A DNA stretch of 64,000 nucleotides. Source: Candidatus Saccharimonadota bacterium (GTDB lineage Bacteria; Patescibacteriota; Saccharimonadia; Saccharimonadales; Saccharimonadaceae). Within the stretch, counting starts at the first letter, position 1; every line of letters begins with the position of its first letter. The stretch lies in NCBI GenBank assembly GCA_027492735.1, contig JAPUEE010000013.1, positions 1 through 64,000 on the forward strand. Reading direction: 5' to 3'. The notes under the pieces were generated by a model. It searched no databases and was not told the DNA's origin. It worked only from the letters and a program-made list of their open reading frames with translations. The position numbers and the translations under genes are program-made. Of the stretch, positions 13,249 to 15,201 are shown one piece after another.

Positions 13249-14535
13249 ATGAAACATACCCGCAAAGACTTATCAGAGAGTAAAATTGAATATCAAATCG
13301 AAGTAGCAGCCGAAGATGTTGCCAAGCATCATCGTGCCGCCGTGAGTAGGCTAGCAAAAGACATCAAAGTTTCTGGCTTTCGGCAAGGTCATGTACCGCC
13401 AGAAGTCGCGGAGAGGAATATCGACCCAGCTCGTTTGGCCGATGAATCGGTGAACGGTGCCATTAATGGTGCATTGATTGAACTAATTGAACTAGAACAG
13501 ATTCAACTACTAGATCAACCGGATATCTCCGTTACTAAATTTGTCTCAGGGCAGGCCTTGGAATTCAAGGCTATAGTCGAGGTTGTTCCACCCGTTAAAC
13601 TAGCTGATCCAGCCAAGCTCAAGACAAAAAAGACAGCGGTAAAGATAGAAGACGACGAAGTCAACGAAGTTATCGAACGTATTCGTAACGACGCAGCCAA
13701 AAAAGCTATTGTTGATCGCGCTGCTAAATTAGGCGACGAAGCCATCATTAATTTCAATGGTAAAGACAAAGATGGCACATCAATCGAAGGTGCAAAGGGC
13801 GACGATTACGCATTAAAACTCGGCTCGAATACGTTTATTCCAGGATTCGAAGAAGGCATCGTTGGACACAAAGCTGGCGATACATTCGATCTACCGCTGA
13901 CATTTCCAAAAGATTATGGTGCGAAACAGCTTGCCGGAGCCAAGGTTAACTTTGCCATTGAAGTAAAAGAAATCAAAGAAATTAAATTGCCGGACCTGGA
14001 TGATAAGTTTGCAGCGTCAATTGCTCCAGACTTTAAAACTATCGCTGATCTAGAAAAAGACATCCGTAGCGAATTGGAGGCTCGTGCCGAACAAGATTCG
14101 GAACAGAAATTCAAAGACGATTTGCTCGATGAGCTAACAGAGAAATCAAAGGCTCCAACTCCAGAAATTCTGGTAGATGATCAGATTACCTCGCTCGAAC
14201 GAAACTTTACACAGAATCTGATGTACCGAGGCATGACTCTAGAGCAATACCTAGAAAACGAAGGATTAAGCCGCGAGGACTGGACAAAGAAAGAGCTGCG
14301 CCCTGCCGCTGAAAAGCGCGTTCGCAACAGTCTCGTTATGGCGCAGCTAACGCGCGATTGGGATGTGACAGTTAGCGAAGACGAAGTCGTAGCCCAGCAG
14401 GCAAAAGTGATCGCCCAGTACAATGATCCTAGCTTGCGACAGCGATTTGAATCCGATGAAGCCAAGAGACAGCTAGCTCAACAACTGATAGCTGACAAGA
14501 CGCTCACGAAACTCGCCGAGTTGAACAGTAAATAG
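13249..14535 (+). CDS. tig: Trigger factor, ribosome-associated chaperone
   Basis: 428 residues. The N-terminal ribosome-binding domain has VSGFRQGHVPPEVAE (the GFRxGxxP signature, about residues 40-53). A central FKBP-type prolyl isomerase domain follows (GDEAIINFNGK through LPLTFPKDYGAKQLAG), and the C-terminus is helical. It binds L23 at the tunnel exit and folds nascent chains. The start is set at the ATG at 13249, nine bases after TACAAT (13234-13239); a longer frame from 13210 would include the promoter. It is followed by clpP, as in many bacteria, although here clpP has a separate, CIRCE-controlled promoter. Confidence 0.94.
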   Translation: MKHTRKDLSESKIEYQIEVAAEDVAKHHRAAVSRLAKDIKVSGFRQGHVPPEVAERNIDPARLADESVNGAINGALIELIELEQIQLLDQPDISVTKFVSGQALEFKAIVEVVPPVKLADPAKLKTKKTAVKIEDDEVNEVIERIRNDAAKKAIVDRAAKLGDEAIINFNGKDKDGTSIEGAKGDDYALKLGSNTFIPGFEEGIVGHKAGDTFDLPLTFPKDYGAKQLAGAKVNFAIEVKEIKEIKLPDLDDKFAASIAPDFKTIADLEKDIRSELEARAEQDSEQKFKDDLLDELTEKSKAPTPEILVDDQITSLERNFTQNLMYRGMTLEQYLENEGLSREDWTKKELRPAAEKRVRNSLVMAQLTRDWDVTVSEDEVVAQQAKVIAQYNDPSLRQRFESDEAKRQLAQQLIADKTLTKLAELNSK

Positions 14536-14552
14536 TAGGTTAGAACAACAGA

Positions 14553-14595
14553 GCAATCTAGCACTCTTGACACGTGAGTGCTAGATTGCTACAAT
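14553..14595 (+). promoter_or_regulatory. CIRCE-like operator overlapping the clpP promoter
   Basis: A perfect inverted repeat with 14-base arms, GCAATCTAGCACTC (14553-14566) and GAGTGCTAGATTGC (14576-14589), is separated by nine bases. The core TAGCACTC-N9-GAGTGCTA matches the HrcA operator CIRCE. The spacer itself contains the -35 box TTGACA (14567-14572); the -10 TACAAT is at 14590-14595, with 17 bases between. A repressor bound here would cover the polymerase site, so clpP is predicted to be heat- or stress-inducible through HrcA. Confidence 0.93.
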
Positions 14596-14601
14596 GATAG
14601 T

Positions 14602-15201
14602 ATGACAAAACCGAGTAGTTTATTGATACCAACCGTACTCGAAAAATCCTATGACGGAGAACGAGCATACGATATCTATTCTCGCTTACTAAAAGATCGA
14701 ATTATCTTTATTGGTGATGAAGTTAATGATCAAACTGCCAATTTGATCGTGGCTCAACTGCTATTTTTGGCGAGTGAAGACGATAGTAAAGATATCAATC
14801 TTTATATCAATAGTCCAGGTGGTAGTGTCTATGACGGTCTCGCTATTTACGATACGATGAACTTTATAAAACCAGATGTAGCGACGTTTGGTATCGGCTT
14901 GCAAGCTTCGATGGCGGCTGTGTTGCTCGCTAGTGGCGCAAAAGGCAAACGCTACATGTTGCCGCATGCCAAAACGATGATTCATCAGCCGCGTGGTGGG
15001 ACCGAAGGTGTCATGACCGATATGGAGATCTCTCTGCGCGAAGGACTCGATATTAAAAAGACACTATCAACCATCATGGCACATAACACTGGCCAAAAAC
15101 TAGACAAGGTTACTGCTGATATGGAGCGTGACTTTTGGATGAGCGCCGAAGAAGCTAAAAAGTATGGCATCATCGACAAAGTTGTGAGCAACAGACCGTA
15201 G
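14602..15201 (+). CDS. clpP: ATP-dependent Clp protease proteolytic subunit
   Basis: 199 residues. The serine-protease triad is visible: Ser in [12 protein letters not shown], His in MIHQPRGG and Asp in [27 protein letters not shown] is the substrate-binding strand. It forms the double-heptamer degradation chamber fed by ClpX or ClpC unfoldases, neither of which is in this window. ATG is six bases after the -10 box, so the mRNA is probably leaderless; an upstream GTG lies inside the operator and is rejected. It is regulated by the CIRCE element directly upstream. Confidence 0.96.

Follow-up and report, generated by a model that had tools for sequence, protein, structure and literature searches.

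The window analysed here, a 64-kb stretch of DNA, belongs to the 817 kb genome of a Saccharibacteria relative, and judged by ClpP its closest named relatives are Candidatus Saccharibacteria. In the window the genes for trigger factor (tig) and for the protease subunit ClpP follow one another on the same strand, with 66 nt between the tig stop codon and the clpP ATG. This gap holds a perfect inverted repeat (14552-14590) and a promoter, which overlap. The features are as follows.

13249-14535, forward strand: tig (trigger factor), the upstream gene; NCBIfam TIGR00115, 359 bits
14552-14566, forward strand: left arm of the repeat, AGCAATCTAGCACTC, with the CIRCE half-site CTAGCACTC at 14558-14566
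14567-14575, forward strand: CIRCE spacer TTGACACGT, 9 nt, containing the -35 hexamer
14567-14572, forward strand: -35 box TTGACA, from the promoter scan
14576-14590, forward strand: right arm of the repeat, GAGTGCTAGATTGCT, with the CIRCE half-site GAGTGCTAG at 14576-14584, between the -35 and -10 boxes
14590-14595, forward strand: -10 box TACAAT, from the promoter scan
14602-15201, forward strand: clpP, 199 amino acids; Pfam CLP_protease, 265.7 bits, and NCBIfam PRK00277 subfamily, 301 bits

The original prediction described a perfect repeat with a nine-base spacer, which is what we find, though the fully complementary arms are 15 nt long rather than 14. With loops of 3-15 nt allowed, every other perfect inverted repeat in the 64 kb window has arms of at most 12 nt. 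The core of the repeat reads TAGCACTC-N9-GAGTGCTA, the inner 8+8 bases being identical to the CIRCE core. Compared with the consensus TTAGCACTC-N9-GAGTGCTAA (PMC3842655) there are two mismatches, which together make up the outermost symmetric pair (C..G in place of T..A), a form that is common to 11 of the 46 clpP sites found in the class. This lies within the limit of about two changes that we set for a CIRCE site, and matches this good are expected 0.01 times per window, which bears out the proposed match to the HrcA operator. TTGACA lies in the spacer as predicted, forming its first six bases. It is separated by 17 bases from TACAAT, giving 11 of 12 matches to the promoter consensus, and TG precedes the -10 box. 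As the -35 box of a heat-shock gene is inside the site, the position is also that expected of a CIRCE element. From its sequence, the repeat upstream of clpP is a CIRCE operator, that is an operator for HrcA, overlying the promoter.

The clpP ATG at 14602 is only six bases past the -10 box and so the transcript is probably leaderless, starting at this ATG as inferred from the promoter spacing. With the usual start about 7 nt past the -10 box, the first transcribed base would be the A of the ATG. A GTG at 14578, given as the start by a mechanical open reading frame call, was rejected because it is located inside the operator.

The prediction of HrcA-type control depended on hrcA being present and on further CIRCE copies, and both were found in the genome. 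There is one hrcA (contig C4; L011:1720-2424). Its product matches PF01628 (71.8 bits) and PF03444 (22.4 bits) above their cut-offs and NCBIfam TIGR00331 at 187 bits, just below the cut-off of 197.2, in line with its being about 100 residues shorter. The structure model (pLDDT 92) superposes on Thermotoga maritima HrcA, 1STZ, with a TM-score of 0.80 by query length, in an alignment of 332 columns for 234 residues that includes about 98 gap columns. This HrcA does not match about the first 95 positions of PF01628, and the same is mostly true throughout the phylum, the HrcA proteins of Saccharibacteria and other Patescibacteria being about 100 residues shorter than that of T. maritima. The missing internal block we take to be the inserted dimerising domain, and the shortening is probably due to its loss. 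The winged-helix part is intact, with a strongly conserved PHTSAGR-PT motif, in keeping with the unchanged operator. Given that the protein is so much shorter than 1STZ, its response to stress may differ.

CIRCE sites with at most two core mismatches number six in this genome, upstream of hrcA, dnaK, dnaJ, groES-groEL, clpC and clpP. HrcA/CIRCE regulons are marked by hrcA in the same genome and by CIRCE at the groE and dnaK/hrcA genes, and both are seen here. The clpC product has Clp_N and AAA domains and a UVR motif. Sequences resembling a -35 hexamer are present in the spacers at hrcA (TTGACG), dnaK (TTGACA, as at clpP), dnaJ (TTTACA) and clpC (TTGCAA). From the sequence, the hrcA, dnaJ, clpC and clpP transcripts appear to be leaderless; that of dnaK has a leader, which contains AGGAG. 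Three sites with three mismatches (window 36216, C15:60014 and C22:25024) were dropped, since a reversed control pattern also gives three.

To follow the clpP operator through the order we took 61 genomes, this one and 60 relatives, in which 52 clpP genes could be read together with their upstream sequence. Allowing at most three changes in 18 positions, CIRCE precedes clpP in 43 of the 52, while control windows at the same loci (n = 108) never came below five changes. The site is also present in a further genome of the order and in two genomes of the class from outside the order, which brings the total for the class to 46 of 55 genomes. Among the 20 named loci with the closest ClpP, nearly all of them titled Saccharibacteria and some from genomes already in the class set, 16 carry it too. 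No CIRCE was found at 60 outgroup loci, mostly from Proteobacteria with a few others. Elsewhere in the phylum, outside the class, only 3 of 67 clpP genes have CIRCE despite hrcA being common there (92 of 109 genomes, with good CIRCE sites in 64 of 109), and the link between clpP and CIRCE is therefore a feature of the class that is rare elsewhere. With this conservation, a chance resemblance to CIRCE, already disfavoured by the low expected count, has a negligible probability. In eight genomes of the class operators were located at hrcA, dnaK, dnaJ, groES, clpC and clpP. Together, hrcA, the set of CIRCE sites and the class-wide clpP operator support the predicted HrcA-type control, with clpP among its putative targets.

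Further operators in the class stand before a small protein that, from its first residues, reads as Hsp20 (G148, G123 and G034) and, in G123, before one that reads likewise as FtsH. The dnaK genes of G034, G001, G011, G015 and G023 (L312, L314, L330, L323 and L319, respectively) have two tandem CIRCE-like copies about 46-49 nt apart; the other genes carry one.

The repeat could also be read as an RNA hairpin, either a terminator or a stabiliser of the 3' end of tig, instead of a repressor site. As RNA it would form a 15-pair stem with a z-score of -4.3, located 16 nt past the tig stop codon. However, the repeat is followed by ACAATGATAG, which has no T-run, and it is absent from the terminator scan. 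Moreover, the arms are conserved in their letters beyond what pairing alone would demand: GCACTC is present in all 46 class clpP sites and GAGTGC in 45, a single substitution, while the spacer varies. The same letters precede hrcA, dnaJ, dnaK, groES and clpC, where the upstream genes are different. We rejected the hairpin on the lack of a T-run and the conservation of the letters, and consider it very improbable.

The HrcA operator has a characteristic register in the class. The -35 box of the best-scoring promoter starts at offset 0-4 of the spacer in 40 of the 46 class clpP sites, wholly within the spacer in 28 of these and at offset 4 in the other 12, where the box ends on the first G of the right half-site. 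A -35-like string (TTGAC, TTGCA, TTTAC or similar) is found in 43 of the 46 spacers; at control positions offsets of 0-3 arise in 6 of 135. The first ATG or GTG is at most 10 nt from the -10 box in 34 of 45 class clpP sites. Outside the class, by contrast, the -35 box is upstream of the entire CIRCE in 22 of the 25 sites with a promoter call, and several sites have the -10 box in the spacer (TATAAT in L187, L203 and L204, from other Patescibacteria lineages). The register in which the operator overlies the promoter thus differs from lineage to lineage.

Roughly a sixth of the class genomes have no operator at clpP. In two of these, G001 and G011, clpP is downstream of a clpC with a perfect CIRCE, directly in the former and with one open frame between in the latter. 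Two more, G006 and G020, have a plausible -35/-10 pair at clpP without CIRCE. In L210 (a Saccharibacteria MAG) and L213 (oral TM7 taxon 352) clpP abuts tig almost directly and lacks CIRCE, which suggests from the sequence that HrcA control of clpP has been lost in this branch. hrcA was not detected in 3 of the 61 order genomes, and G047 (L051; 95% complete) and G052 (L029) have a perfect CIRCE at clpP with hrcA undetected in the assembly; this could be due to incomplete assembly or to loss of the repressor.

The arrangement in L210 and L213, and the short tig-clpP gap on one strand in the genome studied here, fit the idea that the HrcA site is real but that clpP is expressed mainly by readthrough from tig, with HrcA having little effect on the level of ClpP. 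Against this, the clpP promoter is near-consensus, the operator is retained across many families and the two relatives with clpP behind clpC still have CIRCE ahead of both genes. We think it unlikely that readthrough dominates. The reading that we prefer, to which we would give a probability of about 0.9, is that the element is a CIRCE operator for HrcA over the only recognisable clpP promoter. It draws on sequence for the operator and its overlap with the promoter, hrcA, the operators at the chaperone genes and clpC, and the class-wide conservation.

Searches for other heat-shock regulators covered CtsR and sigma-70 region 2. CtsR was found in none of the 61 order genomes, this one included, by a search of limited sensitivity, as of the control genomes it matched Lactococcus lactis but missed Bacillus subtilis. 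The genome has one Sigma70_r2 match, and no second sigma-70-family factor, as expected for a sigma-32/RpoH system, was found in it. It would seem likely that HrcA is the sole dedicated repressor of the chaperones and ClpCP in the class. Because CIRCE is kept on the clpP promoter in most relatives, HrcA probably governs the machinery for protein destruction in the group as well as that for protein folding.

In unstressed cells an HrcA dimer would contact both half-sites, one upstream of the -35 box and the other between the -35 and -10 boxes. Bound in this way it would occupy the side on which sigma region 4 contacts the -35 box, a simple steric block in which occupation of the half-sites flanking the -35 box would exclude the sigma-70 RNA polymerase. 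Under protein-damaging stress HrcA would lose activity; in Bacillus the inactivation comes about as GroEL is titrated away. Derepression would then allow clpP to be transcribed together with clpC, hrcA-grpE, dnaK, dnaJ and groES-groEL. As the transcript is predicted to start after the operator, CIRCE could not act in the mRNA and would work on the DNA only. For Clp proteolysis, HrcA in this class would take the place of CtsR of Firmicutes and of sigma-32 of Proteobacteria.

The kind of system is known; its set of targets and its geometry are unusual. The operator is the same as in the class I regulon of B. subtilis and many other bacteria, the repressor is orthologous and the core targets, groES-groEL and the hrcA/grpE/dnaK/dnaJ genes, are common to both. 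Unlike in the class I regulon, clpP and clpC are among the putative targets here, there are separate operators within the dnaK cluster, the -35 box is inside the CIRCE spacer and the transcripts are predicted to be mostly leaderless. HrcA is reportedly one of two regulators of clpP in Streptococcus salivarius. Dual regulation of this stress gene in that species is reported by Chastanet and Msadek (2003, J Bacteriol 185:683; cited in PMC3842655). Here the association extends across the class and takes in clpC, and HrcA would act alone on clpP since CtsR was not found in the class. In Firmicutes, clpP and clpC belong to the class III regulon, in which the same functions are under a different repressor, CtsR, and a different operator, the heptanucleotide repeat A/GGTCAAA/T (PMC3842655). 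Mollicutes resemble the present case in having reduced genomes with HrcA/CIRCE on chaperones; some proteolysis genes, clpB and lon in Spiroplasma, are included, but clpP is not named among the HrcA targets in the relevant part of PMC5138195.

Our literature search found no paper on HrcA in the candidate phyla radiation, nor one linking it with Saccharibacteria together with either CIRCE or heat shock, and the matches for CIRCE with Patescibacteria were unrelated, judging by their titles; the regulon therefore looks undescribed. A broader proposal, for which we see the odds as even, is that Saccharimonadia have a class-specific one-repressor regulon, in which a shortened HrcA alone is dedicated to the transcriptional control of heat shock, ClpCP has been absorbed and the -35 box has been re-set into the spacer of mostly leaderless promoters. 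This would show clearly how a single repressor has taken over targets which elsewhere are split among two or three regulators. The dozens of natural operator/promoter variants, natural losses included, offer material for studying how operator position evolves, and for these very reduced epibionts the regulon is one that can be tested directly.
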